Below, piece after piece: positions 3,705-38,195 of a stretch of 64,000 nucleotides of DNA. A program made the position numbers and the translations under genes. Origin of the DNA: Nocardioides piscis (GTDB taxonomy: Bacteria; Actinomycetota; Actinomycetes; Propionibacteriales; Nocardioidaceae); the NCBI RefSeq assembly GCF_011300215.1, contig NZ_CP049866.1:806001-870000 (forward strand). Direction: 5' to 3'. A model generated the notes under the pieces. That model did not search any database, was not told the origin of the DNA, and was given only the letters and a program-made list of their open reading frames with translations. Position 1 is the first letter of the stretch, and every line of letters starts with the position of its first letter.

Positions 3705-3775
3705 AGCGATCCATGTTCCACTGACTGGAACGTACTTGGCGACACGGCGGCACCATGGCCGGCAGGCTTCGTGAC

Positions 3776-20529: not shown

Positions 20530-22221
20530 TCAGCGGCTCAACAAGGTAGAAGCCAGGATGTTGAGGATGTCTCCTGGTTGCAGTACCTGATGAGCGCCTC
20601 GATAATATGCGTTCTCTTCCGAAGTCGCGGCGATCTGCTGCAGGGACCCCAGGTCTGCGTCCGCGCTGAGGCCGATAGCGATGATGCGCACTGGCCTATC
20701 GGGGTTCTGCATCTTCTGCAGCTCAAGCTTGAGCTCCTCGAGTGAGATCGAGGCCGGGTCGTCGTTGGGGCCGTCGGTGAAGATCACCAAGGAGTTCTGG
20801 TAGTACGGGTTGTACTGCCGCACGGCCTCCTGGTAAGCGGCCAAGATGGAGTCGTAGAGACCGGCTCCGCCGCGAGTCTGGCTGGGGAGAGCATCAATCT
20901 GTTGTTTGAGGAGGTCCTTGTGGATGCGCCCAGGCCCCACCGGGGCATCGAGTCGACGTAGCGGGGCCACCTCGCGCCAGTCCTGGCCGTTGGGCGCCTG
21001 GTTGGTCGAGAAGACCCGGAACCCGAGACGCACCGCGTCTGGGAAGACCTCCAGTGCGGTCTTGGAGGCGTCAGCCGCCAACTCGATCTTGCTCATGACT
21101 CCGAACTGAGTTGCCATGGAGTCCGAGGTCTCGACGAGTGCCAGGATGCTGGAGGGGACCTTGAGTGCGTTGAAGCGCTTTATCACCGCGTCGACCTGTG
21201 TTTGCGGCACCGTAGCCAACTGCTTCTCTGCGCTTGCGTCCTGACTCTCAGGGAGCGGAGCGCCATCGGGGCCTCGGAGGTGGTCTTCGGCAATGGCCCG
21301 CACGCCCTCCGTGGTCTTGAACCAATCAGCAATCCGCTCACCGGTGCGGGCCACTACGTCCACCCCTGCCGCACTGTTGATCGCGAAGCTGACGCCAACT
21401 GGTTCGGCGACCTGGACGAGCGGGTAGTTGAGAACGGCGAACCCGTCGCCAGGCACGCGCCACTGAAGGGAGTCGTTGCCGCGCTTGGCGATCAGGAAAT
21501 CACGCTCCGTGACAGGCACCATCTTGGCGCTCCCGAGCTCGAGGTTGTCAACGGTCACCTTGCCGACGGTGCCCGAGGCGAGGTTGTCGCCAAACCGTTG
21601 GGCAAGGGGAACCATGGTTTCCTGCGCCGCCGTCGGGTCGCCCTCGCCGAAGGGTGTGACGAGCGCCATGGCAGACGCGCCGTCACTGCTGGGGTCAGAG
21701 ATCTCCAGGTGAGGTGAGGCGAGGACGTCCGACCAGGCTGCGCCCGCTTGTTCCTTGATTCCACCAGCCAGCGCGACCGGCGTCGTCGCGAGTGTTGGGA
21801 CAAGGACGGTGCCGGCGCGGTCGTGGGTCACAAGCACGCTGTGCCAAGCCGGAGAGTCGGGGACCCAAAGATCGGGCAGCGCACTGTCGTCGTCGGGAGC
21901 CTCCTCCAGACCTACCGCGACGTCAGCGACCGTAGCGGTCGTGACGTTGATCTCGACGCATCGACTGTCGGTGGAAAGGGAGTCCACTGCCTCCTCGACC
22001 AGGTCCGCCATGGCTGGGGCCACGGCCACGTTGACGCTGGAGGTTTGGCAGTTCACGCCTGCGCTTTCGTCGCCGCCTAGCGCCTGGGCTCCTGCCCAAC
22101 CGAGGGTCCCGATCAAGATCAGGGTGACGACTCCGACTCTCACCCGACGCGAGGCGCTGCGCTGTGTTGCAGCGGGCTCGCGGTGGTCGTCGGTGTCATT
22201 GTGCAGGTGGCTGCCGAACAT
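20530..22221 (-). CDS. Secreted/membrane-anchored solute-binding plus VWA-domain protein
   Basis: 563 residues. A basic N-terminus is followed by one hydrophobic segment (about residues 28-50, signal anchor), a type 2 solute-binding-like region (about 60-320) and a C-terminal von Willebrand A domain (about 355-563). In the MIDAS metal site the usual DxSxS reads ETSDS at 364-368, so the first aspartate is glutamate; the later TDG (near 483) and the glycine-rich TRGGAGLYDS are present. Proteins of this SBP-VWA architecture occur in actinobacteria but their role is not established; surface ligand binding is inferred. The promoter carries the palindrome TGAKGAWWTCMTCA shared with the neighbouring envelope genes. 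Confidence 0.8.
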   Translation of the reverse strand: MFGSHLHNDTDDHREPAATQRSASRRVRVGVVTLILIGTLGWAGAQALGGDESAGVNCQTSSVNVAVAPAMADLVEEAVDSLSTDSRCVEINVTTATVADVAVGLEEAPDDDSALPDLWVPDSPAWHSVLVTHDRAGTVLVPTLATTPVALAGGIKEQAGAAWSDVLASPHLEISDPSSDGASAMALVTPFGEGDPTAAQETMVPLAQRFGDNLASGTVGKVTVDNLELGSAKMVPVTERDFLIAKRGNDSLQWRVPGDGFAVLNYPLVQVAEPVGVSFAINSAAGVDVVARTGERIADWFKTTEGVRAIAEDHLRGPDGAPLPESQDASAEKQLATVPQTQVDAVIKRFNALKVPSSILALVETSDSMATQFGVMSKIELAADASKTALEVFPDAVRLGFRVFSTNQAPNGQDWREVAPLRRLDAPVGPGRIHKDLLKQQIDALPSQTRGGAGLYDSILAAYQEAVRQYNPYYQNSLVIFTDGPNDDPASISLEELKLELQKMQNPDRPVRIIAIGLSADADLGSLQQIAATSEENAYYRGAHQVLQPGDILNILASTLLSR

Positions 22222-22272: not shown

Positions 22273-22301
22273 CTATAACTGAGGAAATCATCAGTTCTCA
22301 A
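22273..22301 (-). promoter_or_regulatory. Promoter of the SBP-VWA gene with palindromic operator (site A)
   Basis: On the minus strand TTGAGA (plus 22296-22301) and TTATAG (plus 22273-22278) are separated by 17 bases. The 14-bp palindrome occupying plus 22280-22293 (TGAGGAAATCATCA) fills that spacer, a position that would block RNA polymerase. Promoter hexamers are matches by eye, not mapped. Confidence 0.6.
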
Positions 22302-22420
22302 AGATCACAAGGAGCGCCCCCTGGGCGAACGACAGCGCCCGCGCCCCGCGCCCGGGAGCCGCACATCCGCTCTCGGTCCATGAGGGCTGTCTTGCCAAGT
22401 GGCCGAGGGTCGGACCTGCC

Positions 22421-22457
22421 TTGACAGATCACCCAGGCGAAGTTGATGATTTCATCA
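22421..22457 (+). promoter_or_regulatory. Promoter with palindromic operator (site B) for the 22517/22638 genes
   Basis: TTGACA at 22421-22426 is a perfect -35 hexamer. About 17-18 bases later comes GATGAT, a fair -10, which lies inside the palindrome TGATGATTTCATCA at 22444-22457. The palindrome is identical in form to sites A, C and D, so a repressor would cover the -10 region. Confidence 0.6.
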
Positions 22458-22516
22458 CTTCCAGTGGATGAGGAGGCCGTGTCGTGGCATGGACGAGGCG
22501 CGAGGAGGTGTGCGCG

Positions 22517-22618
22517 ATGGCGTTGCGCGTTGACGGAGTCGTGCTCGCGGCCGCTGGCGGCGACGAGTCCTTGCGCACGCCGATGACATTCAGTCGCGCC
22601 GCGCACACTGTCGTGTAG
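22517..22618 (+). CDS. Small ORF of 33 codons, possibly an ABC-ATPase N-terminal relic
   Basis: A 33-codon frame (MALRVDGVVLAAAGG...) has an excellent ribosome binding site GAGGAGG at 22502-22508, nine bases from the ATG, and follows promoter/operator site B. The pattern 'LRVDGVVL..GG-ESLRTPMTFS' resembles the first strands of an ABC ATPase domain such as that fused to the MMPL protein at 30296, so it could be the remnant of an ATPase partner of the ABC-2-like protein encoded next, or a translated leader. I cannot tell which, and it may also be noise. Confidence 0.35.
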   Translation: MALRVDGVVLAAAGGDESLRTPMTFSRAAHTVV

Positions 22619-22637
22619 AGCCCAGGACCTCAGCAGC

Positions 22638-24980
22638 ATGGACAAACTTCTCGACAGACTGCGATCTACCCGCCACGACAATCGGTCGACGGCGGGCTGT
22701 CGGGGGCATCGTTGGGTGCGGCGTGCCTTTCCCGCACCTGTGGTCGCCGGGTGCGTGCTGCTTCTTGGGGCACACGCCGTACTGGTGAGCATGCTGGTGG
22801 GTCCTGGACAGGACGCGAGACTGCACGAGGCTCCACTGTTGATTGTGGCGTCGCCCGTGGTGAGCTCGGCGTTGGCTGAGCGAGCGAACGCGCTGCCTGA
22901 CCGTCCATTGGCCGTCTTGGCCGGCGATGCCGGCGACGGTGTCGACGCCGCTGAAGACCAGGTCATCGAGGGTGTGGTGGTTGCCGCTCTGGTGATGGAT
23001 TTGTCGGGCACTACTGACCGTCTCGTCCTCAACGCCAGCCGTGACGAGGAACTGAACGGCGCGGTGGAGGATCACGTCCGCCAAGTGTTGGCCAGCAACG
23101 GACGGAGAGTGCAGGTCACGCGTGTGTCCGCTACCACCATGAGTGGTGAGCGTGTGTCCGCAGCGGCGTTGGCGAGCAGCGCGGCGGGCTTCGCCATGGC
23201 GCTGCTGGTGTCGGTGCTGTTGGGTCCGGCACCGAACCGGCTGCGGCTGGGTGCCGGACGAGTCGTGACGTTGGTGTTGGTGTGCGGAATCTTGGGCCTG
23301 GTCGGAGCGTCGTGGCTCTCGCCCCCCTCCACGGCGAGACGAATCGAGATGGCGGCCGTCGTGGGCCTCAGCATCTTGATGCCTGCGCTGTTGACGCTGG
23401 CGTTGGGGGCGCTCGCGGGTCTGGCCGGACTGGCTGTGGGCTTGACCTTGTTCGTGGTGGTCGCCTCCCCGTTGTTGTGGGGCATCGACTCGCACCTGCT
23501 TCCCGAACCGTTCAACAAGCTCGTGGACTGGACGCCAGCGGGTGCGACGGTGAACGCCCTCGACAGCGTGGTGCTGTTCACCGGTACGGGGCTGCGTCAA
23601 CCTCTGGCCGTGTTGATGGGGTGGCTGGTGGTGGCCGTCGTGGCGATGCTGGTGGCACGGCGCGAACGAGTCCGCGCTCACGTCACCCTCGGTGACGGCA
23701 TCATCGGCTCGCGCAAGCAGACGTCACCTCAAGGTTTGGCTACGGCCGCATCATCCATTGGCGCCAGCCCCCGAGGGGATGCAGATTCGCCGCCGAAACG
23801 ACGCCTTACACGTCGCTGGCGCTTGCGCGTGGCCGCAGTCGTACTTCCCAGCGCGATCATGGTGGCCGGACTTGTCGCGTTCATCCCCAGCGATCGATCG
23901 CCCTCGGCTGCTGTCGTCGTCGACAGCGCTATGCAAACCCCGTGCGTGGCCACGGGTCGGGTGAGTTCGGTCTCGGACCTCAACCGGATCTCTGCCCGCT
24001 TACGGGGCGAGGGTCAGTTCGAGGGCGGTGATGTCGGCGCCAGCGCCGCCCTGCAAGACGGTCGTCGGCTACTCGTGTTCGGCGACACGCTGCGTAGGCT
24101 GCCCACCGGTCAGCGCACGTTCGTGCGCAACTCGATGCTGCTGTTCGACCCGGGCTGCATCCAGGCGGTGCTGCCAGCCGACTCCGGTGCTCTCATCCCG
24201 AACCGCGCAGGTACCGGCGTCGACGTCGGCTACTGGCCCATGTCGGTGAATGTCGCCACTCGGCCCGGATACGACCTCGTCTCGGTCATGGCTCAGCGAG
24301 TTCGTAGCACCGGTAGCGGTCCCTTCGATTTCGAGAACATCGGACCCGCGGTCGCGGTGTTCATCGTGCCTCGCGAAGGCGCACCGCAGCTCATCTCGGT
24401 TACTGACCTCGGCCCGGACGACGCCGACGTCACGCGCCCGACATGGGGGGCAGCGTCGGTGGTCGAGGCAGGGTGGACCTACCTGTACGGGACAGCCGGC
24501 AGCACAGAAGAGCTCACGTTCGGCTACTCGCTGCACCTGGCGCGCGTTCGCCCTGACAGCGTTCACGACCAGCAAGCCTGGGAGTACTGGACCGGGACAC
24601 GCTGGTCCCGCGCGGAGCACGAGGCAGTGGCACTGATCGACAATCAGGCGGGAACCTCGCAAACCCTGTCGGTCTTCGAGCGTGATGGCACCTGGTATGC
24701 GTTGAGCAAGCGCGACGACTTCCTCGGCTCCAAGGTCACTGTGTGGACCGGCCCACATCCTTGGGGTCCGTTCGATGTGGGCCGCGATGTTGCCCACCTG
24801 GAGTCCAACATCGTCACCGGGCAACTGCGCTACATGCCGTTGGCGCACCCCGACCTGTTCGCGCGGCCCGGCGATGTCGTGGTGTCCTACAGCCGCAATC
24901 GAACGGACGTGGGCAGCATCGTGAACGACCCGATGCAGTACCGCCCACGCTTCCTGAGGGTGCCGCTGCCCGATCAATGA
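22638..24980 (+). CDS. ABC-2-like membrane domain fused to a DUF4185-like extracytoplasmic domain
   Basis: 780 residues in two parts. Residues ~30-345 form an ABC-2/YhgE-like membrane unit: one transmembrane helix near 33-55, a ~130-residue external loop, then about five hydrophobic helices between ~180 and 345. After a basic linker a further transmembrane helix (~393-415) leads to a ~360-residue domain that resembles DUF4185 beta-propeller proteins ([22 protein letters not shown], then a repeat pattern of W/Y-rich strands such as WTYLYGTAG and [12 protein letters not shown]). DUF4185 domains are related to carbohydrate-active propellers, but no catalytic residue can be assigned here. The fusion is unusual. 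Placed behind operator site B, it probably belongs with the MMPL/YhgE proteins in export or modification of an envelope component. Confidence 0.75.
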
Positions 24981-25139
24981 TCGTCATCGCAGCGCGGGCG
25001 CCCGCCGCAACTGCGGTTCCTGCCGAATCGGAGCAGTCGGGACGCGCACCTGCATGGAACCCGCGAAGCGCCGCCCGCGTCGCCAGTCGGCGCAGCGCGA
25101 ACGACGCGCTGGGGTGCCTTCCAGAAGGCGGCGGGCTTC

Positions 25140-25172
25140 TTGACATGATGAAATCCTCATTAGTGATATATA
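25140..25172 (+). promoter_or_regulatory. Promoter with palindromic operator (site C) upstream of acyl-CoA dehydrogenase
   Basis: TTGACA at 25140-25145 is immediately followed by the palindrome TGATGAAATCCTCA (25146-25159) and then an extended -10-like TGATATATA (25164-25172). The rest of the ~310-bp gap (24981-25294) holds no other recognised feature. The operator lies between the promoter hexamers, as at site A. Confidence 0.6.
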
Positions 25173-25294
25173 TTGCCACCAACGCCTGTCATCACGTTGC
25201 CGCAATCAGCGTGGGTCATGACGTCGCCCCAGGCGAGCTGTTTCGTCAAGGTCTGGCGCCGCGGCGGCGCTCACGAGAAAGGAACCGAAGTCCG

Positions 25295-27169
25295 GTGAGT
25301 CACTACAGGAGCAACGTGCGTGACATCGAGTTCAACCTCTTCGAGGTCCTCGGACGCGACGACATCCTCGGGCAGGGCCCCTTCGCCGAGATCGACGGCG
25401 GAACCGCCCGCGAGATCCTCGCCGAGGTCGACCGCCTGGCGCGTGATGACCTGGCCGCGTCCTACGTCGACAGCGACCGCAACCCGCCCGTCTTCGACCC
25501 TGGCACGCACACAGCCCCGGTACCGCCCTTGTTCAAGAAGGGCTACGACGCCTGGATTGCGTCCGGCTTCTGGACCATGAACGCACCCGCCGCGTTGGGC
25601 GGCATGGAAGTCCCCAGCTCCGTGCTGTGGGCTGCCAACGAGATGCTCCTTGGGGCGAACCCCGCCATCTGGATGTACGCGACCGGTGGCGGATCGGCGG
25701 ACGTCTTGTTCCGCAACGGCATCGAGCGAGACAAGCTGATGGCCGCGCACATCATCGAACGGCAATGGGGTTCGACGATGATGCTGACCGAGCCGGACGC
25801 GGGCTCCGACGTCGGCGCCGGACGCACGAAGGCCACCCTCAACGAGGACGGCTCGTGGAACATCACGGGCGTCAAGCGCTTCATCACATCCGCAGAATCG
25901 GACCTGCAACAAAACATCATGCACATGGTCCTCGCGCGCCCCGAGGGCGTCGAGGGCGTGGGCGGGCCGGGCACCAAGGGCCTCTCGCTGTTCCTGGTTC
26001 CCAAGTACCACTTCGACCACGAGACCGGCGAGCTGACCGGCGAGCGCAACGGCGTCTACGTCACCAACGTCGAGCACAAGATGGGCATCAAGGTCTCCAA
26101 CACCTGCGAGGTCACCTTCGGCGACCCGCAGGTCGGCGGCGGCGAGCCCGCGAAGGGCTGGCTGCTCGGCGAGGTGCACGACGGCATCGCGCAGATGTTC
26201 CAGGTCATCGAGAACGCGCGGATGATGGTCGGCACCAAGGCCATCGCCACGCTCTCCACCGGCTACCTCAACGCCCTCGACTACGCCAAGACGCGCGTCC
26301 AGGGTGCCGACCTGACGCAGGCGGCCGACAAGACCGCACCCCGCGTCACCATCACCCACCACCCCGACGTGCGCCGTTCGCTGATGACGCAGAAGTCGTT
26401 CTCCGAGGCCATGCGTTCGCTGGTGCTCTACACCGCGTCCTGGCAGGACAAGGTGATGCTGGCCGAGCACGCCGGCGAGACCGACGAGCTGGCGGCTGCG
26501 GTCAACGACCTGCTCCTGCCGATCGTCAAGGGCTACGGCTCGGAGCGCTCGTGGGTGCTGCTGGGCACCGAGTCGCTGCAGACCTTCGGCGGCTCCGGGT
26601 TCCTCCAGGAATACCCGATCGAGCAGTACGTCCGCGACGCCAAGATCGACACCCTCTACGAGGGCACCACCGCGATCCAGGGCCAGGACTTCTTCTTCCG
26701 CAAGATCGTCAAGGACCAGGGCCGCGCGCTGGGTCACCTGGCCAAGGAGATCGAGTCGTTCATCGGCGCCGAGTCCGGCAACGCACTGCTCAAGAACGAG
26801 CGCGCGCTGCTGGCCACCGCGCTCGAGGACGCCAACGCGATCGTCGCCCACATGATCAACGACCTCATGTCGGCCGACACCTCCTCCGAGGGCGGCGACC
26901 TGCGCAACATCTACAAGGTCGGCCTCAACACCAGCCGCCTGCTGATGGCGCTCGGTGACGTCGTGTGCGCCTGGCTGCTGCTGCACCAGGCCGAGATCGC
27001 CCTGGAGAAGCTCGCCGGGGACCCCGGCAAGGACAAGGCCTTCTACGAGGGCAAGGTCGCGGCCGCGCAGTTCTTCGCGCAGACCAACCTGCCGCGGATC
27101 ACCGCCGAGCGCGCCATCGCCGAGGCCACCGACCTCGCCCTGATGGACCTCGACGAGGCCGCGTTCTAG
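25295..27169 (+). CDS. Acyl-CoA dehydrogenase with C-terminal extension (FadE/DmdC-like)
   Basis: 624-residue acyl-CoA dehydrogenase of the long type. N-terminal helical domain to ~150, flavin-binding [19 protein letters not shown] (about 165-185) and [16 protein letters not shown], catalytic glutamate in [15 protein letters not shown] (about residue 467), then an extra ~130-residue helical C-terminal domain as in 3-methylmercaptopropionyl-CoA dehydrogenase-like and long-chain enzymes. GTG start at 25295 chosen because AAAGGA lies upstream and the family start [13 protein letters not shown] follows; the frame open from 24743 overlaps the previous gene. Codon choice is very GC-rich and regular, more like the core chromosome than its neighbours. 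Operator site C suggests it is co-regulated with the envelope genes, linking fatty-acyl metabolism to them. Confidence 0.9.
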
Positions 27170-27189
27170 GCCGCCTCTCCCCCGAACGG

Positions 27190-27228
27190 CGGGCAGCCGG
27201 CCGACCCCCGAAGTCGGCTGCCCGCTCT
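27190..27228 (+). terminator. Hairpin after the acyl-CoA dehydrogenase gene
   Basis: CGGGCAGCCG (27190-27199) pairs perfectly with CGGCTGCCCG (27215-27224) around a 15-base loop, 20 bp past the stop codon. It is followed by CTCTCTC rather than a T run, so it is an atypical GC-rich terminator. Confidence 0.6.
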
Positions 27229-28053
27229 CTCAACAACTCGCCTCATTGTTCCGAGGCGGTTCATTCGATCCGTGCAAGGATCGCTGGAGGCGCCGCGTGC
27301 GCCCGGACTCGATCCCCGCAGTTGACCTGAACTCACGACACACCGAACACGCAGTCCCGTGTGCGACCAAACGGCTGAACATCCATGACAGATGCATCCG
27401 ACCGTGGGTTCGCTCGCGATCGGTTCAAAAGACCGATGGCCGGCGCGCTCAAGATCGAGCGAAGCCAGCGTGCCGATGACGGCCGTGACGACGCTCACCC
27501 CCCAACCAGTTCCCGCGCGGCACCCACAGCGAGCAGGCGGAGACCGATGAGGTGTCCCTGGATGTGGGAGGCGTGCTGATCGCAGGTGCGCTGCTCGGCG
27601 CGGTCGAAGACGATGTGAGCGACGAAGAAGAGGAGACTTACTCCTCTCGTCTTGGCGAACACCGACCTGCCAAGGCTCCGAATCCAATGTGTACACCACT
27701 ACCGACGTCACTCGCCGAGGATGTCCTCAGGCGCAGCGCGTTCGACTGCTCCGGGTTTGCCGGCAGCATTCCTCCCCAGTCAACTTTGTGTGACGGTTCG
27801 CGGCGTCGCGGCCCAGGACCAGAGGTCACCAACGCCCAGCAGTGCCGGATCCGCCGCACGACTGCCGCGCGCAGACATCTACACGGAAGCGCGACTGCGT
27901 ACCTCGGGCTGCGATGTCCGGCTCCTGCGCCGCAGGCACAAGGACTTCTTCATCCCGTTGGGGCGCCGACTCGCCGATGCACCGCGCATCCTCACGACCG
28001 CTGCGGTCCATGAGCCCGCAATCCGCTGCGCCCCAGACCCAGATGGCGCCTGA
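27229..28053. other. Gene-poor stretch, possibly decayed coding sequence
   Basis: About 825 bases lie between the terminator and the end of the YhgE-like gene. Open frames exist in several registers but none has a credible start, ribosome binding site or domain. On the minus strand, 27535-27640 reads through as a short helical peptide (FFVAHIVFD then QGHLIGLRLLAVGAARE) ending in a stop, which looks like the end of a broken gene; I cannot name its family. Nothing else is recognised. Confidence 0.4.
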
Positions 28054-30288
28054 CTACATCACCAACGCCGGGTGCAGGGCATGCTGCGTCACGTTGCGGC
28101 GCTTGCTCGCGGCCAGCGTCGAGACCACCAGCGCCGCGACCATCCACAAGACCAGTGCGGCCACATCCCCGGCCATCGCGGCGTCTCCGCCGGCGATCGC
28201 GTTCCGCATGGCCTGCACGGCATGAGTCATCGGCATCCACGCACTGATGGCGGAGAAGAACCCCGGTGCGGTCTCTACCGGATACGTCCCACCGGCCGCC
28301 GTCAGCTGCAAGGCGACGAAGATGAGCGCCAAGAACCGTCCCGCGGACCCGAACAGCGCGATCAACGCCTGGTTGATGGCTACGAACGTGACGCTCGTGA
28401 CCACAGCGACACCCAGCAGACGCCAAGGATCGGCCGCCTCGATTCCCACCACAAGCTCCAGGACCCCGACGAGCAGGCCTACCTGCACGAGCGCCAGCGT
28501 GGCGCCGGGCACGAACCCAGCCAGCGCGACACGCCACGCGGGCGTTGTGGTGCCGAGCAGCCGTGCCGACAGGGGGCGCAACATCAAGTAGATCGCCAAC
28601 GCACCGACCCACAGGGCCAACGACGAAAAATACGGCGCCAGTGCGGCTCCGTTGTTCTTCACCGCATGGGCACGCACCACGTCCGCTTGCACCGGTTCGG
28701 CAGCTGCCTGCGCCAAAGTGATCCGATCTTCCGCCTTGTACGTCGGCACGTCCAACACACCTTGCGCCAATCCCGCGTCCAGATCGCGACTCCCAGTGGC
28801 GACATCATCGCTTCCGGCGGCCACCTCGTCCGCGCCGGCGGCAACCTCGACGCCGCCCGCGGCGAGCTGGGTCGACTTGCTGGCCAGCGTTCCCGTGCCC
28901 TGCTGCAACTGACCGAGGCCCGAGGTGAGTTGTGCGGCGCCATCATCGGTGCGGCCAGCACCCTCGTTGAGACGTCGCGCCCCTTGGCTCAACCGCCCGG
29001 CGCCCGCGGCCACGTCTCGAGTTCCGCTCGCCACCGAACTGGCACCCTCACTCAACGTCGCCGCCCCGTCGGCCAGATCGTCGGCGCCGGAGGCAACCCG
29101 CGCCGACCCTGCCACGAGCGGGTCGGCCCCGGTGGCCAACGTGCTTACTCCCGTCGCGAGCGCGGTCGTGCTCACAGCCAGTTGGTCGGCTCCCGCAGCA
29201 GCCTGCCGCACGTTCGCGCAGTACGTGGCCAATGCCGGAGAGGGCGGGCATGCATCCGCAAGCTGACGCATTTGTGCGGCATAACTGCCGGCACCTGCGG
29301 ACACCTGGTTCGCCGAACCACTGGTCGTGTCGAGTCCCCTGCTCAACTGGTCCGCGCCGCTGGCGACGTTGGTTGCACCGTCGCGCAACGCGTCAGCGTT
29401 GGTGGCCAGCTTGCGTGACCCGGCCGCGACCTGGCCGGCTCCCCGACTCACCTTGGTGGCTCCCTGATCGAGCTGACGGGCACTCGAACTCAGCGCGGAT
29501 GCACCCTGAGCCAACTGAGTCGTCGCATCACTGAGTTCGCCGGACCCGCCTGCGAGCTGACGCGCGCTGGCATCCAGCGTCCCTGCTCCGACGGCTAGCT
29601 CCGTCGTACCTATGGACACCTGCCTGGCACCGTCACTGACTCGGCCCGCCCCCGAGGCCAAGCTGACACTCCCGGCGGCCAGATCCGCCGCACCGACAGA
29701 CGCCTGCTTCAAAGACTTGTGAGTATCGTTGAACCCTTGGTACAGGCCGTCGAGGTACTGCTCGGTGACCTGGTCCGACAGCGAGCCGGTAGCCCTAGCA
29801 GCCAGCGATGATGTGATGTTGCCATTGATGTAGTTGTACGCGTCGTTGGTCTCCCACCCGAGGTGGCCGGTTCGTGTATCGGTCGCATCGTTGCCGCTGA
29901 CCGAGACCGCGTCGGCGGAGAATTCCGCGGGAATGGTCAAGACGGCCGCGTAGTCACCGTCAGCCAATCCGGCTGCGGCATCCTTAGCATTCGTCAGACG
30001 CCAGTCGTAGTTGTTCTCGTCGTCGCTGGACACCAGTTCTGCCGCCAGGACACGACCGAGCGCCACATCGGTCTCGTCCTTGCCGGACCCGACGGTGACG
30101 ATCTCGTCGTTGTTAACGACCGCGGCGTGCAGTCGATCCAGGTTGTCCGAAGGATTCCAGTTCGCCAGCACGTACAGCGACCCGTAGATCAGCGGCACCA
30201 GCACAATGGCTACCACGGCGCCCTTGGTCGCACGGCTCCTGCGGAACCGCGCAAGCTCGAACCAGGGCACGGACGGGGAAGGAAACAT
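28054..30288 (-). CDS. YhgE/Pip-type membrane protein (ABC-2 superfamily, EsaA-like architecture)
   Basis: 744 residues. One N-terminal transmembrane helix (about 22-44) is followed by VVNNDE, a conserved feature of YhgE/Pip proteins, then a large extracytoplasmic region rich in alanine/glycine/serine in which a seven-residue pattern (A-x-x-L-A/S-x-G) repeats from about 195 to 500 and should form a long helical stalk. About five transmembrane helices follow in the last 220 residues. Family members include phage-infection protein Pip and the type VII secretion component EsaA. The gene starts seven bases after the MMPL stop, so the two are one operon under operator site D. A surface-spanning or export role is likely, substrate unknown. 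Confidence 0.85.
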   Translation of the reverse strand: MFPSPSVPWFELARFRRSRATKGAVVAIVLVPLIYGSLYVLANWNPSDNLDRLHAAVVNNDEIVTVGSGKDETDVALGRVLAAELVSSDDENNYDWRLTNAKDAAAGLADGDYAAVLTIPAEFSADAVSVSGNDATDTRTGHLGWETNDAYNYINGNITSSLAARATGSLSDQVTEQYLDGLYQGFNDTHKSLKQASVGAADLAAGSVSLASGAGRVSDGARQVSIGTTELAVGAGTLDASARQLAGGSGELSDATTQLAQGASALSSSARQLDQGATKVSRGAGQVAAGSRKLATNADALRDGATNVASGADQLSRGLDTTSGSANQVSAGAGSYAAQMRQLADACPPSPALATYCANVRQAAAGADQLAVSTTALATGVSTLATGADPLVAGSARVASGADDLADGAATLSEGASSVASGTRDVAAGAGRLSQGARRLNEGAGRTDDGAAQLTSGLGQLQQGTGTLASKSTQLAAGGVEVAAGADEVAAGSDDVATGSRDLDAGLAQGVLDVPTYKAEDRITLAQAAAEPVQADVVRAHAVKNNGAALAPYFSSLALWVGALAIYLMLRPLSARLLGTTTPAWRVALAGFVPGATLALVQVGLLVGVLELVVGIEAADPWRLLGVAVVTSVTFVAINQALIALFGSAGRFLALIFVALQLTAAGGTYPVETAPGFFSAISAWMPMTHAVQAMRNAIAGGDAAMAGDVAALVLWMVAALVVSTLAASKRRNVTQHALHPALVM

Positions 30289-30295
30289 CAGTCAG

Positions 30296-33200
30296 TCACC
30301 TCGTGGTCGAGACGGGGCCGGGGCTGGCCGTCGGTCGGGTGGTGGTCGTTCGGTCAGCCGCCCGGCCGGTCCGCGGCCGGCGGGTGGCGACAAGTTCGCA
30401 ACGCCGAACGTGGTCGGGAGCCAGCAGCCCCGGCTGGGCGGACAAGACGATGGCCGCTGCCGCACGACCCGTTGGTGATCCGGTGGCGACGTCGTGAGGG
30501 CTGGTCAGTAGGTCCAAGACGCGCCAGAACGTGTCCAGGTCATCGGGGTCTCGCACCACGTCGATGGCGTCGACGACGATCACATCGGGATCGGACAGGC
30601 CCGCGAGGGCCACGCCGAGGCTCAACCGCTGCAACGGGGTCAACTGGCTGACCAAGCAGTCGCCGGCGAGGGCCTCGAACGTGTCGTTGCCAGTGGCGGA
30701 CGCCGCGTCGTGAACCAAGTCGTTGAGGCTGTCGCGGACCGCGTCGACGCGCCGGCGCCGCACCCAGAGTCCCAGGCTCGCCGAACCGAGCCGCTCGGCA
30801 ATGTGCTGGTCAACGCTCAACGCCTCCTCGAGCGGATTGACCAGTGCGAACTCGGCAAGGCTTACCCGGTGCCGCACTGCGACACGCTCGTGCGGCAGCA
30901 AATGGCCGCTGACCTTGAGACGACCCTCGAAAGCGGCCATGCGGCCGGCAAGAGTGAGCAGAAGCGACGTCTTGCCGACTCCCTGGGTGCCCTCGACCAG
31001 CAGCCATTGGCCGCGCTCGACCGTCAGATCAACAGGATCGAACATTGCCTCGCGGTCCTCGTCCAAGACGGTGAGTCCTTGCGCGGCAACCGCCGGTGGT
31101 GTTCCCGGGCGCGGCCACGAGCGCAGCTCCATCGCCTCCTCAACCGCCGCGCCCTCGACGTCGACGTGCGGTACAAGCCCGTCCAGGCGAGCGGGCAGGC
31201 GCCACGCCTGTTCGCCGACCAACGCCAGCACCGCCGGGATGAGCGTCATCCGCACTACGAACGCGTCAACCACGACGCCCACAGCCAACCCGAGTGCGAT
31301 CGGCTTAACTGTCACGTCCTCACCCAGGACGAAGGCCGCGAAGACGCTCGCCATGATGAGCGCCGCAGCAGCTACAACCGGGGCAACCCCTACGAAGCCA
31401 CTGATGACGGCCTCACGTGCGGCCGCGCCGCGCGCGTGGTCCTCCTTCATCCTCGAGACGAGGAAGATGTGATAGTCCATCGCCAGCCCGAACAACACAC
31501 CCATCAAGATGATCGGCAGAAAGCTGATCACCGGTCCCGTCCGTTCCACACCCAACACATCGGCGAACCAGCCCCACTCGAACACGGCCACCACCGCACC
31601 GAACGCGGCCCCGACCGAGAGCAGATAACCGGCTGCGGCACTGAGCGGAATGAGGACCGAGCGGAACACCACGGTGAGCAGGGCTAGACACACGCTCACC
31701 ACCAGCAAACCAAACGGAATGAGAGCGTCGAAGAGCCGAGCCGAGGCATCGATCTGCACCGCCGTCTGACCGGTCACTGCGCTGTTGATACCCCACCTCT
31801 CCTCCCACCTCGTCGACCGGTCGCGAATGTCGCGGGCCAAGTTGGCAGTGGCCTCAGTGCTGCCGCCGCTGGTCGGAATGAGGACGACTACGCCTGTGTC
31901 ACCACGTTCGTTCGGGGTCGCCAACACCACCTCGGCGACCCCGGGAACGCCCGCTATCTCCTCACCGAGATCCCGCATCACACGCTGTGGGTCGGTGGTG
32001 CTGAGAATGTCGGCATAGACCAGCAACGGAGCGTTGTAGCCGGGACCGAACTCAGCGCTGATGAGGTCGTAAGCCGTGCGTTCGGACGAACCTAGCTCAG
32101 CCGAACCGGTGTCAGGCAGGGCCAACCGGAGGTCAACGGCGGGATAGGCCAGCACACCCAGACCCACGACACACACGACGATCGTCGCGGCCGGCCAGCG
32201 GATGACGGCGCGCACCCAACGCCCCTGCCGGGCGCGGGTGTGCGCACTGGCATTGCGACCACGCCGCAGCCGAGTCATCAGGGTCTGACCGGGCCGGCAA
32301 CCAGGGCTGGTCCGGGCTGGAAGCAGACGCCCACCAAACACCCCGAGGAACGCCGGAAGGAGGGTGACTGCAGCAGCGACCGCGGTCGCCACCGCGAGCG
32401 CGGCGAACACACCCATCGTGCGAAGGAAAGGGATGCCAGGGACGGCCAACGCAAGCAGGGCAGTCATCACGGTGACACCGGCGAACACGACCGCGGACCC
32501 GGCCGTGGCGTTGGCGCGCGCGGCCGCCTCCTGACCCGCAAGACCCTCCCCGAGAAGCTCGCGGTAACGCCAGACCAGGAACAGGGCGTAGTCGATGCCA
32601 ACCGCCAGACCGACCATTAGCCCGAGCAGCGGCGTCGTGGACGAGACGTCTATCCAACCCGTCGCACCCATCGTCAGAGCCGTCGCGAGTCCCACACCGA
32701 CCACCGAGGTGATCACGGGCAGGACTGCCGGCACGATGGCGCGGAACGTGACGAGCAAGATGAGCAACGCAACCACGACGCCCAGGGCTTCGGTTGGCGA
32801 CAGACCGGGCCCGGTGCTGATGAACGCCTGACCGCCCACCGCGGTCGTGTATCCCTCGGACGTCAACTCCGAGGCGACCTGCTGCAGCGCCTGCTTTTGG
32901 CTCTGCGACACCTGCGCTGCCGCAACGTCGAATTGGACCTGGACCAGAGCAGTGCGCTCGTCGCCGGAGATCAGTCCGCCCTCGGCGTATGGCGAGAGGA
33001 CCTGAACGACTCCCTCCACCGTGCGCAGCTCACGCACCAGCGCGCGTATGTCGCGGCGCGCGCCGTCGGAGACCATCGTCGAGTCGGGCACGGACACGAC
33101 GACCTGCGCGGTTGCACCAGCAACTTCGGGAAACGTTCGCTCCAACGCTTCCAACGCCGACTGACTCTCGGTCCCCGGCACCTCAAACGTGTTGCTCGTA

Positions 33201-33319
33201 CCGGCAGAAACCACGGTCGAAATGACTCCGACACTCAGAACAACCGCCAGCCACGCGACGATGACTCTCCACGGGTGCCCAAAGGCAGCACTCCCCCACC
33301 GGTACAGCGCGTTCGCCAT
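30296..33319 (-). CDS. MMPL-family transporter fused to a degenerate ABC ATPase domain
   Basis: 1007 residues. Residues 1-700 form a standard RND/MMPL unit: 12 predicted helices, two external domains, and the proton-relay Asp-Tyr pairs in GLAVGIDY (about 237-244) and GLAMDY (about 611-616). Residues ~745-960 look like an ABC nucleotide-binding domain: Walker A GTQGVGKT (777-784) is intact, but the signature reads LTPLQ (893-897) and Walker B ends in VVDAID, with alanine at the position of the catalytic glutamate. It may therefore bind but not hydrolyse ATP. MMPL proteins export lipids or glycolipids to the envelope; the fused domain may regulate transport or dock the YhgE partner encoded next. 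Operator site D lies 27 bp before the ATG. Confidence 0.88.
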   Translation of the reverse strand: MANALYRWGSAAFGHPWRVIVAWLAVVLSVGVISTVVSAGTSNTFEVPGTESQSALEALERTFPEVAGATAQVVVSVPDSTMVSDGARRDIRALVRELRTVEGVVQVLSPYAEGGLISGDERTALVQVQFDVAAAQVSQSQKQALQQVASELTSEGYTTAVGGQAFISTGPGLSPTEALGVVVALLILLVTFRAIVPAVLPVITSVVGVGLATALTMGATGWIDVSSTTPLLGLMVGLAVGIDYALFLVWRYRELLGEGLAGQEAAARANATAGSAVVFAGVTVMTALLALAVPGIPFLRTMGVFAALAVATAVAAAVTLLPAFLGVFGGRLLPARTSPGCRPGQTLMTRLRRGRNASAHTRARQGRWVRAVIRWPAATIVVCVVGLGVLAYPAVDLRLALPDTGSAELGSSERTAYDLISAEFGPGYNAPLLVYADILSTTDPQRVMRDLGEEIAGVPGVAEVVLATPNERGDTGVVVLIPTSGGSTEATANLARDIRDRSTRWEERWGINSAVTGQTAVQIDASARLFDALIPFGLLVVSVCLALLTVVFRSVLIPLSAAAGYLLSVGAAFGAVVAVFEWGWFADVLGVERTGPVISFLPIILMGVLFGLAMDYHIFLVSRMKEDHARGAAAREAVISGFVGVAPVVAAAALIMASVFAAFVLGEDVTVKPIALGLAVGVVVDAFVVRMTLIPAVLALVGEQAWRLPARLDGLVPHVDVEGAAVEEAMELRSWPRPGTPPAVAAQGLTVLDEDREAMFDPVDLTVERGQWLLVEGTQGVGKTSLLLTLAGRMAAFEGRLKVSGHLLPHERVAVRHRVSLAEFALVNPLEEALSVDQHIAERLGSASLGLWVRRRRVDAVRDSLNDLVHDAASATGNDTFEALAGDCLVSQLTPLQRLSLGVALAGLSDPDVIVVDAIDVVRDPDDLDTFWRVLDLLTSPHDVATGSPTGRAAAAIVLSAQPGLLAPDHVRRCELVATRRPRTGRAADRTTTTRPTASPGPVSTTR

Positions 33320-33345
33320 GCTGTCTACTCGCTATCAGGGTTAGT

Positions 33346-33359
33346 TGATGATTTCCTCA
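33346..33359 (-). promoter_or_regulatory. Palindromic operator (site D) upstream of the MMPL-YhgE operon
   Basis: TGATGATTTCCTCA, the exact reverse complement of site A. Read on the minus strand, a TTGAGG hexamer overlaps its edge, but no good -10 follows, so the transcription start is unclear. It sits just before the MMPL start codon. Confidence 0.55.
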
Positions 33360-34208: not shown

Positions 34209-34242
34209 TTGACAGATTACGCTGACTGCGTAATCGTTTCAA
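34209..34242. promoter_or_regulatory. Face-to-face promoters over a perfect palindrome
   Basis: GATTACGC-N5-GCGTAATC at 34215-34235 is a perfect 8+8 dyad. TTGACA (34209-34214) abuts it for the rightward recombinase gene, and TTGAAA on the minus strand (plus 34237-34242) abuts it for the leftward gene, with TAATCT/TAATCG as weak -10s at each end. A dimer bound here would block both. The core TTACGC-N5-GCGTA recurs at 44932 and 49365. Confidence 0.6.
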
Positions 34243-34302: not shown

Positions 34303-37284
34303 ATGACCGCCATGTACGCCATCCAGCCACCCGCATTTGACGATGCGGTGCGAGCCTTGAGGCTGATCATTGTTCGCCAGTCGAGCGTGACCGCGCACTC
34401 GGATCTGCGAACGCTGCTCGAGCGCACCCTGTCCCTGTATCCGTTTCTGCCCGGGTGCGATGAGATCGGCCGCCTTGGCATCGAGCCTGTCCTCAACCCT
34501 CGCACGACAGACCAGCACTGGACATTGCCGGATGGCGGAGCCGCTTGCCTTTACGAAGTGGACGGGACCTGGGTACTGCTCATCCTGGGTTCCGCCGCAG
34601 CACGAAACGCGGCTAGCACCGAGATCGACCAGAAGAACGAGAACGCTGTCGTCAATCTGATGAGCCACGTCTTGTCAGCGTTGCGTCCCGTTGAGGTCTT
34701 CATCGGGCCGTTCGATCGTGTCAATCGCGCTCATGGTTATGCGACCAAGACTCTAGAAGCGTTCAAAGCCGCCAATGTGGAGGTGCTCTACCTAGAGGAC
34801 GAGCCCGGCGAGATCTGGTTCGACACCGAACATGCTGAGCAGTCTTGGTACTCCCTGTCCAACAGCGCAGCCACGAACTGCAAGGTGACGGTCAAACGGA
34901 CCACCGGCGGCAAGGTCAGCATGGCGCGCCGCAACCTGTGGTTCCTGGGCGAAAGCTCGACTCCGGTGGGGCTCACTACGGACGATGCGAACCGCCTAAT
35001 TGTCGATCAGCGTGACCGCGCAGCAGTGGAAGTAATCGTCAAGGGCTTCGCTGCGGGGGACACGGATGCAGCCATCGCGCGGAGACTCGTACAGCAGGGA
35101 CTGCTTCGCAGACGAAAGACCATGCGCAAGTCAACACAGGGCTCCGCCGTCTTCATTCTGGACCAGAACGAGCACAACCGCGTCCAACGTGCCGTTCGGC
35201 TCTTTCGGGGGCGCATGCTCGACCTGGCCATGGGCAAGCACGTCATGGAAGTGACTGAACCCGCTTCCACAAACTTTACCCACCGTGGAGTACGCCGCGA
35301 GAAGTCGGCCCGCAACCTTTGGCAGCATGTGCTCGTGTGGGATGTGCCGGACATCTTCGACCACGTCAACCAGGCCGACCTTGACGCTGCGCTCATCACA
35401 ACAGCGCGCAAACGCATCCGAGCCGGAAAGCGTGCCAGCCTCTGGGTCCACGAACGCGAACAGCGCGAGCGGATCCAGGCTGACCTGACGGCACCAGTTG
35501 ATTCCCAAGACGCCCGGGAGACAGCAAAGCGCAACCAACTGACGTTGGAGATGTCGCGTCCGATCGGGTCCGGTCCAGAGCACTCTCGCAGTGCCCGCGT
35601 GCGAGAAATCCTGTCCTTGGTGACCGGAGAGGAACCGCGTAGCAACTCCAACACGAGCATCCCTGAATCCGCGCGTCTTTTCTCCGGATACTCGGCCTGG
35701 AGTCAGGAAGACGGGACTGAGTTCAAGATCGCTTGCCACTTAGGCGACACGTACGCCGTCCTGCGACGGACCTCAGACTCACAACTCAAACCAACGGAGT
35801 CGCTCAACCGCGCGTGGGGAATCGCAAGTGGCTCGAAGGGGGTAATGAAGCATGCCGTGGCCCAGATTCGATGCCAGACCTTCCATGCCGCAATCGCCGA
35901 CGCAGCAGCGAGCCACATCGACCAGGGCGTCAGCGTTCTCTCTGGGCAACGCGCCGCAGCCAGTGGCATCATCCAAGCCGGCCAGCACCTCCAGACCGAG
36001 CGAACCCTTCGACGTCAGCGGCTGGTTCAAAACCTCGATGCTGCACGACGGGAGGTGCGCAGCGCCGAAAGCCGCGTGCGCCTGCTCACGGACTATGGAC
36101 AAGCCCAGTCCAACTCACCAGGGGGAGCCGAAGACGCCTGGCAAGCCGTCAACGAGGATGTCCAGCGAGCGGCGCTTCGGGAAGAGGTGCAGGCTCGCGC
36201 ACGGGAAAAGCGTCTCCAAGAAGACCTCACATGCCTGCATGACGAGGCGAGCGCGACTCTGCCGGAAGTGATGCCCGACTTGGATGACCTGGACCTCGCG
36301 CTTCGCACCTTGGTGGCCCTGCGTACTCGCGTCACCGCGCGCAGCGAACAGGTCCGAGCCATTCAGGCTCTCATCCCGAGGATGCGGGTCATTGGAGTGA
36401 CAGCATTTGAAGTGGAGTTCGAGATCGACCTGCTCCTGCCAACGACAAGTGAAACCAGTCTCCCGGTTGGGCCTATCCGCTTCACGGTCCCAACAGCCGG
36501 CGTACGTCCGCCCGGCTACGAGAGTTGGTCACATGCTGAGTGTGAGGAACTCGCGTACCGGCGACTCACTATGGAGGACACCAAGGCCACACGTCACGGA
36601 GCGTCACTCGTAAACGACGGGCTCGCTGCCAAGTCGTACGTCGCCTATCACGCTGCACAGCACCTCATCAGCCGTGGCCTCACCCAAGGCCAGGCTCGCT
36701 ACCTTCTGCAAACCACGCTTCTCCTCCCTCGAACCGTGACCTACAACCTCGCCCAGGGGATCCCCATCGACCATCACGAGCTGGGAACCAGCGAGGCATA
36801 CGTCGAGGTCATCCGACGGACCTATCTGCAACCCAACTCGACGTTTCCTTTCAGGGCACCGATGCTGTCTAGCCGAACCGAGATGCAACGACTGCTCAAC
36901 GCCATACGAAACAGTTCGCTCCCCTATTGGCGACCCACCGAGATTGCCGACCACTTGGGGCTAGCGACTGACAGCGACCCCAAAGGGCGGTATCAACGAG
37001 CCCGCGTCTGGGCCACACTCAAACGCGAGAACCTGCCGCACCTCCTCAGCAGGATCGACGTGTCCGGATTGTCCCGCCACGGCAAGCGAATGAAGAACCT
37101 GTCGGGCTACGTGCTGCAACCCTGCCCCCACTGCGCCGAAACGGGCACCCCAATGCCGGTCGACATCGTCGTCTGGAACGCCGAAGTCCCTGGAGGACTC
37201 CTCTGCTCCACTTGCCTGCGAACACCCGCACCCGACAGCATCACGTATCCACACGCCTACCGGGCGTTGCTCGAGGTCGACTAG
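34303..37284 (+). CDS. Divergent large serine recombinase-like protein
   Basis: 993 residues, much longer than phage serine integrases (450-650). The N-terminal part reads like a distant resolvase domain: IIVRQSS (Arg25, candidate nucleophile Ser27) corresponds to YxRxS, and FDRVNR (Asp138, Arg139, Arg142) to the conserved DRxxR motif. Residues ~215-310 resemble the recombinase domain (AAVEVIVKGFAAGDTDAAIARRLVQQG). A coiled coil follows (about 570-640, RRQRLVQNLDAARREVRSAESRVRLL). A zinc-ribbon-like pair CPHC (941-944) and CSTC (968-971) closes the protein. Function in excision or integration is inferred; the low sequence similarity to typical members makes me cautious. Start at 34303 has GAAGGA upstream. 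Confidence 0.6.
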   Translation: MTAMYAIQPPAFDDAVRALRLIIVRQSSVTAHSDLRTLLERTLSLYPFLPGCDEIGRLGIEPVLNPRTTDQHWTLPDGGAACLYEVDGTWVLLILGSAAARNAASTEIDQKNENAVVNLMSHVLSALRPVEVFIGPFDRVNRAHGYATKTLEAFKAANVEVLYLEDEPGEIWFDTEHAEQSWYSLSNSAATNCKVTVKRTTGGKVSMARRNLWFLGESSTPVGLTTDDANRLIVDQRDRAAVEVIVKGFAAGDTDAAIARRLVQQGLLRRRKTMRKSTQGSAVFILDQNEHNRVQRAVRLFRGRMLDLAMGKHVMEVTEPASTNFTHRGVRREKSARNLWQHVLVWDVPDIFDHVNQADLDAALITTARKRIRAGKRASLWVHEREQRERIQADLTAPVDSQDARETAKRNQLTLEMSRPIGSGPEHSRSARVREILSLVTGEEPRSNSNTSIPESARLFSGYSAWSQEDGTEFKIACHLGDTYAVLRRTSDSQLKPTESLNRAWGIASGSKGVMKHAVAQIRCQTFHAAIADAAASHIDQGVSVLSGQRAAASGIIQAGQHLQTERTLRRQRLVQNLDAARREVRSAESRVRLLTDYGQAQSNSPGGAEDAWQAVNEDVQRAALREEVQARAREKRLQEDLTCLHDEASATLPEVMPDLDDLDLALRTLVALRTRVTARSEQVRAIQALIPRMRVIGVTAFEVEFEIDLLLPTTSETSLPVGPIRFTVPTAGVRPPGYESWSHAECEELAYRRLTMEDTKATRHGASLVNDGLAAKSYVAYHAAQHLISRGLTQGQARYLLQTTLLLPRTVTYNLAQGIPIDHHELGTSEAYVEVIRRTYLQPNSTFPFRAPMLSSRTEMQRLLNAIRNSSLPYWRPTEIADHLGLATDSDPKGRYQRARVWATLKRENLPHLLSRIDVSGLSRHGKRMKNLSGYVLQPCPHCAETGTPMPVDIVVWNAEVPGGLLCSTCLRTPAPDSITYPHAYRALLEVD

Positions 37285-37370: not shown

Positions 37371-38195
37371 TCATTGTGCCGTGTTCTCGGCTCTGGCGGA
37401 TGGCAGCGTGTCGATGCCGCTGTCCTTGAGTCGATACGAGCTGCCTTTGAGGGTGAGGACGTCGGCGTGGTGGACGATCCGGTCGATCATCGCGGCGGCA
37501 ACGACCTGGTCGCCGAACACGTCGCCCCAGCGGGCGAAGGGCAGGTTCGATGTGAGGATCAGCGAGGCGTGTTCGTAGCGGCTGCTGACGAGTTGGAAGA
37601 ACAGGTTCGCGGCGTCTTGCTCGAACGGGATGTAGCCGACTTCGTCGACCACGATGAGGCCGTAGCGGCGTAGCCGTGCGAGCTCGTGGCTCAGCCGGCC
37701 GGTGGCGTGCGCGTGCTGGAGTCGGGTGACCCATTCGGTCGCGGTCGCGAACAGGACCCGGTGTCCGGCGTGGGCTGCTTTGATCCCGAGCCCGATCGCG
37801 AGGTGGGTCTTCCCGGTCCCGGGCGGGCCGAGGAGCACGAGGTTCTGGGCGGCGTCGATGAAGGTCGCGGTGCCTAGGTGCGCGATCGTGTCGCGCTTGA
37901 GTGCGGGCTGGTGGTCGAGGTTGAAGTCCTCGAGTGACTTGCGGCCCGGGAACCCCGCGGCCCGGATCCGGAGCTCGGCACCGGATCCTTCCCGGGCTGA
38001 GACCTCACGCGACAGCACGGCAGCGAGGTACTCCTCGTGGGTCCACGACGCATCGCGCGCCTGATCACCCAGCCTGGCCGCGGCTTCACGGATCCGTGGT
38101 GCCTTCAGTGCCCGGGAGAGGTACTCGATCTGCTTGGCCGTGTCCTTCGTGACCGTCGTCGTGGGTGTCGTTGAGGTTGCGGGGTTCGTGGCCAT
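37371..38195 (-). CDS. istB: IS21 helper ATPase IstB
   Basis: 274-residue AAA+ (DnaA-like) ATPase that assists the IstA transposase and selects target DNA. Walker A is GPPGTGKTH (about residues 123-131), Walker B is LIVVDEVGYIPF (about 184-195), and the sensor region ILTSNLPFARWGDVFGD is typical of IstB. Its ATG directly adjoins the end of istA (shared base at 38195). Length is slightly over the usual ~250 because of a Thr/Pro-rich N-terminus. Confidence 0.95.
   Translation of the reverse strand: MATNPATSTTPTTTVTKDTAKQIEYLSRALKAPRIREAAARLGDQARDASWTHEEYLAAVLSREVSAREGSGAELRIRAAGFPGRKSLEDFNLDHQPALKRDTIAHLGTATFIDAAQNLVLLGPPGTGKTHLAIGLGIKAAHAGHRVLFATATEWVTRLQHAHATGRLSHELARLRRYGLIVVDEVGYIPFEQDAANLFFQLVSSRYEHASLILTSNLPFARWGDVFGDQVVAAAMIDRIVHHADVLTLKGSSYRLKDSGIDTLPSARAENTAQ

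Follow-up and report, generated by a model that had tools for sequence, protein, structure and literature searches.

A predicted RolR-type TetR operator at five promoters of an aromatic catabolic island in Nocardioides piscis

Introduction

Repressors of the TetR family typically occlude a promoter and are released from it by a ligand, and gene clusters of the mhp/hpp type, which serve phenylpropionate breakdown, are usually governed by regulators of the IclR or GntR type. RolR (NCgl1110) of Corynebacterium glutamicum is a resorcinol-responsive TetR repressor of known structure (PDB 3aqs and 3aqt); its description lists Asp94, Arg145, Arg148 and Asp149, together with Phe107, Leu111, Leu114, Leu142 and Phe172, as the residues that hold resorcinol (PMC3086911). 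Here we analyze a 64,000-nucleotide stretch of the Nocardioides piscis genome (contig NZ_CP049866.1, genome positions 806001-870000; hereafter, the window), in which an initial annotation had noted a 14-bp palindrome at four promoters and had proposed an envelope/lipid regulon. We find that the palindrome very probably serves as operator for a TetR repressor of the RolR type whose gene lies in the same window (TetR 2266-2922) and which would control five promoters in a 39-kb island.

Results

The four palindromes (sites A to D; Table 1) are present in the window exactly where they had been noted, and site A is the exact reverse complement of site D. They had been called far beyond chance, and 100 dinucleotide shuffles of the window indeed contained no match. 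The initial annotation had also proposed a scan of the whole genome. Exactly five matches to the 14-bp pattern were found in the 3,784,668-bp sequence (none with a reversed-pattern control), and instead of being scattered, all five are confined to a single 39-kb island, at 800607-839359. The fifth match, site E, lies 5.4 kb to the left of the window. When one mismatch was allowed, only two extra places appeared, 3120477 and 3331749, both far from the island (control, 0). A scan of a 104-kb region for weaker sites gave a next best score of 14.3 versus 25.2, and the best of these weaker sites lies inside coding sequence. Base 4 of the half-sites in the five palindromes is T in seven cases and G in three. 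Sites C and E have the flank TCATTAGTGA in common; otherwise the 20-bp flanks differ, though the palindromes are intact. In a search of relatives, the pattern was present in 3 of 58 genomes, the N. piscis genome included (that is, in 2 of 57 others), and, within the genus, in 1 of 36 other genomes. The regulon is a local one. The relaxed pattern TGANGANNTCNTCA with one mismatch matched 219 places in the genome, versus 65 for its reversed control, and was rejected as too loose for use.

The initial annotation had read the sites as operators of the TetR type from their layout, with sites A and C filling the space between -35 and -10 elements and site B covering a -10. The operator reading is strongly supported, and a candidate repressor gene is present in the same window. 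Site B overlaps a TTGACA-18-GATGAT promoter, the single match of a promoter scan for which 1.0 match is expected in shuffled sequence, so that the scan alone is no proof. By eye, sites A and C stand directly behind a TTGAGA/TTGACA hexamer, and site E, 37 bp before a plus-strand gene run, overlaps the -10 of a TTGACA-17-GATGAT promoter. No clear promoter was seen at site D, 27-40 nt ahead of the start codon of the MMPL gene.

The regulator was approached through the MMPL-ABC protein encoded behind site D. This protein was searched for in 147 genomes of the order; in all of the 29 MMPL-ABC loci examined (29 of 29), its gene adjoins a YhgE gene. In two genomes, G122 and G140, two TGACGATWTCGTCA palindromes are present in the MMPL-ABC promoter, along with a divergent TetR gene. 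The best match of the G140 TetR in the N. piscis genome is TetR 2266-2922, with an E value of 9.7e-62 (1.5e-13 for the second match) and 51% identity over 199 residues. Next to the G140 TetR gene there is also a gene for an extradiol dioxygenase that carries two sites, a homolog (62%) of the N. piscis gene at L006:10864-11985, L006 being our number for the locus that holds site E.

TetR 2266-2922 clears two Pfam cut-offs, with 35.3 bits against 24 for TetR_N and 105.3 bits against 27 for TetR_C_40. RolR occupies Foldseek ranks 1-4 for its AlphaFold model (mean predicted local distance difference test score, pLDDT, 91) and is its best solved relative by sequence as well (E 9e-29, ca. 31% identity). 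RolR residues were mapped by eye from the alignment with an offset of 16, whereupon all nine named residues fit the RolR sequence. In the 203-residue numbering of the window TetR, RolR Asp94, Arg145 and Asp149 correspond to D70, R121 and D125, i.e., three of the four ligand-motif residues are kept, and Phe107, Leu111 and Leu142 correspond to F83, F87 and L118. In 10 aligned TetR rows that include the window protein, D70 and D125 are invariant and R121 nearly so. KstR2 is a weak sequence match (5e-5), and the HsaD and HsaC cut-offs were not passed; the KstR motif, as we take it, differs from the window's palindrome.

The association between this TetR and the palindrome extends across the family. 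TetR matches at E 1e-25 or better were found in 46 of 394 genomes of the class. Around 29 TetR orthologs other than the N. piscis one, 41 exact TGANGANNTCNTCA sites were counted versus 0.06 expected from first-order Markov shuffles, and 54 versus 2.08 when one mismatch was allowed; 23 of these 29 loci carry a TGANGANNTCNTCA site. A further set comprised 80 named loci, the best 80 of at least 509 confirmed TetR relatives. TGANGANNTCNTCA occurs in 68 of them, with 117 sites in all, 94 of which fall in the 300 bp preceding the start of a tetR match (a 227-fold excess over the rest); 29 control loci carrying acyl-CoA dehydrogenase genes had none, and each of five shuffled versions held 0 or 1. Four pairs of identical TetR rows among 118 rows show that the two sets overlap, so that some species were probably counted twice. 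The stricter pattern TGAYGAWWTCRTCA was present in 26 of the 46 genomes with the TetR, that of N. piscis among them, versus 66 of the 348 without it (Fisher P 2e-7); the pattern and TetR counts were matched across two draws taken as identical, with 394 genomes and 137 genera each. The 66 TetR-less genomes include small ones, where chance matches are likely, and some of the 66 may carry more distant TetR relatives.

Homologs of the hydrolase encoded behind site E have a site within 200 bp upstream in 11 of 20 cases, and all 13 of these sites carry T at base 4 on the locus strand (one of them, at L086, has C in the other half). Among the dioxygenase matches, the corresponding figure is 49 of 56, and 58 of 77 sites carry C at base 4. 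A few hydrolase and dioxygenase matches stop at the end of their locus, and these counts cover upstream DNA within the loci. Across the family, both tetR and an aromatic catabolic operon have the palindromic operator at their promoters, and aromatic catabolic operons are the family's usual targets elsewhere; in N. piscis the operator is at the catabolic operon and not directly at tetR. Two groups of pattern matches were set aside: 45 viral-contig stretches, none of which encodes a TetR relative, and TGAGGAWWTCCTCA places in four other genomes (L164, L172, L175 and L176), which have no homolog of a regulon gene within 1.5 kb and look like chance.

The difference at base 4 goes with residue 40, in the recognition helix of the TetR. 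For the half-site counts, a lone TetR was assigned all sites of its locus, and otherwise only sites up to 500 bp upstream were used. Among loci other than the window's, Met40 goes with C in 171 of 242 half-sites, Phe40 with T in 33 of 44, and Ile40 or Val40 with A in 13 of 22. A majority base could be called for 89 of 118 rows, the window now included (G was ignored to break ties, and rows that stayed tied or lacked sites were left out), and it was C for 59 of 62 Met rows and T for 16 of 17 Phe rows. The exceptions are L134 (Ile with C), L143 (Phe with C), L116 (Met with A), and L100 and L146 (Met with T). The window TetR has Phe40 and falls inside a Phe clade of 31 rows, in which 15 of the 16 other callable rows go with T and the sites are mostly TGATGA, the window's motif; the window thus fits the subtype with T at base 4. 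In a tree built without the recognition helix, the Phe and Met types form the two sides of one branch (SH-like approximate likelihood ratio test, SH-aLRT, 99), so descent and cause are inseparable for this rule. An independent-pairs test over supported branches offered one Phe/Met contrast and two Ile-Val/Met contrasts (one agreeing, one without a difference), too few for power.

We tentatively suggest that residue 40 in ADVG-X-GSFYNHF may set one base of the half-site TGAxGA (T for Phe, C for Met, A for Ile or Val). Such a switch would insulate paralogous repressors from each other, one acting on a hydrolase/meta-cleavage operon and the other on a dioxygenase/FAH operon, and would let the Phe type capture transport genes and duplicated lipid genes. 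Both a Phe-type and a Met-type TetR are encoded at L111, L114, L122 and L137, which are candidates for insulated sister repressors; a TGATGA-type site is present in the locus only at L111 and L114.

The plus-strand gene run behind site E begins with a BphD/HsaD-like hydrolase, a BphC/HsaC-like extradiol dioxygenase, an MhpA-like flavin adenine dinucleotide (FAD) hydroxylase, an amidohydrolase and another gene, and continues with a FAD monooxygenase, the TetR, an IclR regulator, a hydratase-like gene and two more genes. The last two are, as we read them, of the MhpF and MhpE types; the hydratase-like assignment comes from a family search match below its cut-offs. Since the hydrolase and the dioxygenase fall below all of their best equivalog cut-offs, no substrate is named. 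The initial annotation of an envelope/lipid regulon is therefore half right: membrane-transport partners recur in some other genomes, but site E stands at the head of an operon for aromatic ring cleavage, RolR is the nearest regulator of known structure, and the family's usual targets are aromatic catabolic operons. On the basis of the fifth site and the family survey, a regulon restricted to lipid and envelope functions was dropped.

The units behind sites A to D are as they had been described, except that the ABC-2 half assigned to unit B has no Pfam support (DUF4185 only). In 18 of 20 related places, the match to the DUF4185 protein aligns only from about residue 370-460 onwards, i.e., its N-terminal half is unusual. 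The acyl-CoA dehydrogenase of unit C, which we take to be FadE5-like, most likely starts at GTG 25295. It is a second copy; in the same genus, each of the 14 genomes that gave a match has a single one at the cut-off used, with 77-83% identity. Similarity between the two N. piscis copies starts at the start codon, and the promoter with site C is not shared. The SBP-VWA paralog at 1796255 has a different gene neighbourhood, and no operator site was found in either paralog region. Units A and C thus have paralogs in two different chromosomal places (73% and 89% identity, respectively) and new promoters in the island. Elsewhere in the window, the palindrome ATTACGCTGACTGCGTAAT (34216-34234) lies upstream of a 993-residue open reading frame (34303-37284) that has no Pfam match and adjoins an IS21-type pair (37371-39439).

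Table 1. Features of the N. piscis island considered in this work (window positions unless stated otherwise)
Feature	Position	Strand	Remarks
Operator A	22280-22293	-	TGATGATTTCCTCA, read toward the VWA-SBP gene 20530-22221
Operator B	22444-22457	+	TGATGATTTCATCA, overlaps the -10 ahead of the gene for the DUF4185 membrane protein
Operator C	25146-25159	+	TGATGAAATCCTCA, promoter of the presumably FadE5-like acyl-CoA dehydrogenase gene
Operator D	33346-33359	-	TGAGGAAATCATCA, read toward the MMPL-ABC/YhgE operon
Operator E (fifth site)	genome 800607-800620 (L006:14607-14620)		TGATGATTTCATCA, left of the window
TetR-family candidate repressor	2266-2922	+	218 aa, TetR_C_40, RolR-like; proposed regulator of all five sites
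FAD monooxygenase	494-2149	+	member of the gene run starting behind site E
IclR-family regulator	2958-3704	+	PcaR/PobR-like; considered as a rival regulator
Lower meta-cleavage genes	3755-6536	+	2-keto-4-pentenoate hydratase-like, then two genes; homologs linked in relatives
Unit A, SBP-VWA protein	20530-22221	-	563 aa; paralog with 73% identity at genome 1796255-1797922
Unit B, protein with C-terminal DUF4185	22638-24980	+	780 aa; by eye, the N-terminal half seems embedded in the membrane
Unit C, acyl-CoA dehydrogenase	25295-27169	+	624 aa, GTG start; duplicate of genome 1262595-1264463 (89%)
Unit D, gene 1, MMPL permease fused to ABC ATPase	30296-33319	-	1007 aa
Unit D, gene 2, YhgE/Pip-type ABC-2 membrane protein	28054-30288	-	744 aa

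Discussion

The system appears to be a RolR-type TetR regulon. We propose that a TetR dimer would bind TGAKGAWWTCMTCA at the five promoters and so control the hydrolase, extradiol dioxygenase, MhpA-like hydroxylase and amidohydrolase run (E), which may be cotranscribed with tetR and thus reach the repressor gene itself, the SBP-VWA gene (A), the DUF4185 gene (B), the duplicated acyl-CoA dehydrogenase gene (C) and the MMPL-ABC and YhgE pair (D). The bound repressor would cover the -35/-10 region and block RNA polymerase, and a phenolic substrate or intermediate in the C-terminal pocket would release it, so that transport and lipid functions are switched on along with ring catabolism. The position of the sites and the likeness to RolR point to such promoter occlusion and release by a phenol. 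The envelope genes may handle, or confer tolerance to, a hydrophobic aromatic compound, for instance a phenolic lipid.

Several observations weigh against this assignment. No site immediately precedes the window tetR; the nearest one, which heads the gene run, is 7.6 kb away, and gaps of 152, 56 and 116 bp separate genes between site E and tetR. A second TetR gene, an IclR gene and a LysR gene are also present in the island. The exact site is absent from 12 of the 80 named TetR loci, and TGAYGAWWTCRTCA from 20 of the 46 genomes with the TetR. The targets behind sites A to D lack the operator in most relatives: only 2 of the 29 MMPL-ABC loci have TGANGANNTCNTCA (it is absent from the other 27), and no site was found in 15 SBP-VWA loci (the N. 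piscis paralog included), in 29 acyl-CoA dehydrogenase loci (141 kb) or in 20 DUF4185 loci with 1.5-kb flanks, where many matches are partial and some promoters may fall outside. Since no sites were found in these related loci, units A to C look like captures specific to this lineage. Finally, one RolR ligand-motif residue, Arg148, is His124 in the window TetR, and two pocket residues, Leu114 and Phe172, are Thr90 and Gly148. These replacements suggest that the ligand is probably not resorcinol, and a hydrophobic side of the pocket opened in this way suggests a larger phenolic ligand.

With other regulators so close, the palindrome could be bound by one of them: the second TetR (L006:12641-13234), the IclR (2958-3704) or the LysR (11542-12498) protein. 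All three are encoded in the same catabolic island, and the IclR resembles aromatic regulators of the PcaR/PobR type, though below the cut-off of that model. The operator, however, tracks orthologs of TetR 2266-2922 in dozens of genomes, including G122 and G140, where the TetR gene and the sites are neighbours. The second TetR of the island is distant, sharing only 25-32% identity with the G140 TetR, and its gene is preceded by a different palindrome, so that it was rejected as the regulator; we consider this explanation as a whole very unlikely. That palindrome, TGAACACCTATGTTCA (L006:12576-12591, genome 798576-798591), precedes a TetR_C_40 gene divergent to an extradiol dioxygenase/FAH hydrolase set, the usual target of the Met type elsewhere. 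It has no second copy in the 104-kb region and is possibly the second TetR's own operator.

It is also conceivable that TetR 2266-2922 controls only operon E and that sites A to D are by-products of promoter copying or rearrangement that carry no regulatory weight. The scarcity of sites at related targets (none for A to C, 2 of 29 for D), the paralogy of two targets to genes elsewhere in the genome, and the flank TCATTAGTGA shared by sites C and E speak for this. On the other hand, the palindromes have stayed intact in flanks that otherwise differ, they occupy promoter-like positions (mostly judged by eye), and MMPL or other transport genes recur with an operator of this type in G122, G140, Glycomyces, Nocardiopsis and Nocardia. 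On balance, we regard such by-products as unlikely. An origin of the sites by chance or as a repeat artefact is practically out of the question, given the empty shuffles, the five of five genome sites within 39 kb with a control of 0, the excess of TGANGANNTCNTCA around the 29 TetR orthologs (41 versus 0.06 expected), and the lack of a long common sequence in the 20-bp flanks (no dedicated repeat finder was run).

Operators of this type head other transport genes elsewhere. In Glycomyces, an MMPL-ABC/YhgE pair stands beside a TetR gene, with two sites; in Nocardiopsis alba, the same operator type heads an MMPL gene beside a Met-type TetR; and in Nocardia lijiangensis (L104), an MMPL gene is under this type of operator. 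In Nocardia alba it is found at an LmeA-like and ABC-2/DUF3533 gene pair, to which an acyl-CoA dehydrogenase gene (60%) is convergent, and at a Mce-type lipoprotein gene. Because transport partners (MMPL-ABC/YhgE, MMPL, Mce/ABC-2) recur in some other genomes, the envelope half of the regulon is probably not accidental; ring catabolism is repeatedly paired with envelope transport, albeit through different genes. A comparison of twelve promoter stretches (those of L011 and L016-L018 were read from the wrong end) revealed a GATAC...GTATC palindrome in the MMPL-ABC/YhgE promoters of L013, L015 and L022, from other genera, and something similar in L012 and L014; it is possibly the operator of a different regulator.

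For a large group of TetR proteins that resemble RolR, with members in Nocardia, Mycobacterium, Amycolatopsis, Nocardioides, Streptomyces and other genera, these results predict operator and regulator at the sequence level; they also yield a testable specificity rule of one residue and one base. They would also link an MMPL-ABC/YhgE transport pair to aromatic catabolism and place duplicated chromosomal genes under an apparent catabolic repressor. Searches of the openly accessible literature, with the accessible parts of PMC3086911 and PMC9662819 included, found no description of the operator family, the MMPL-ABC/YhgE link or the residue/base correlation. Of the motif strings searched for in this literature, one occurred in one unrelated paper, and none of the top-ranked results connected MMPL or YhgE with such a TetR.

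Like RolR, the window TetR is predicted to regulate aromatic catabolism, and it has three of the four RolR ligand-motif residues, but the two proteins are only ca. 31% identical and His, Gly and Thr replace the pocket residues Arg148, Phe172 and Leu114. The MMPL-ABC/YhgE pair is the same two-gene pair as in other actinobacteria, where 27 of 29 loci lack TGANGANNTCNTCA, whereas here it has a RolR-type operator. With the mhp/hpp phenylpropionate clusters, the island shares an MhpA-like hydroxylase that passes one HPP-hydroxylase subfamily cut-off, an MhpB-type dioxygenase that passes one cut-off, a BphC/HsaC-like extradiol dioxygenase, a BphD/HsaD-like hydrolase and a hydratase-like protein; it differs from them in its predicted control by a TetR repressor of the RolR type.

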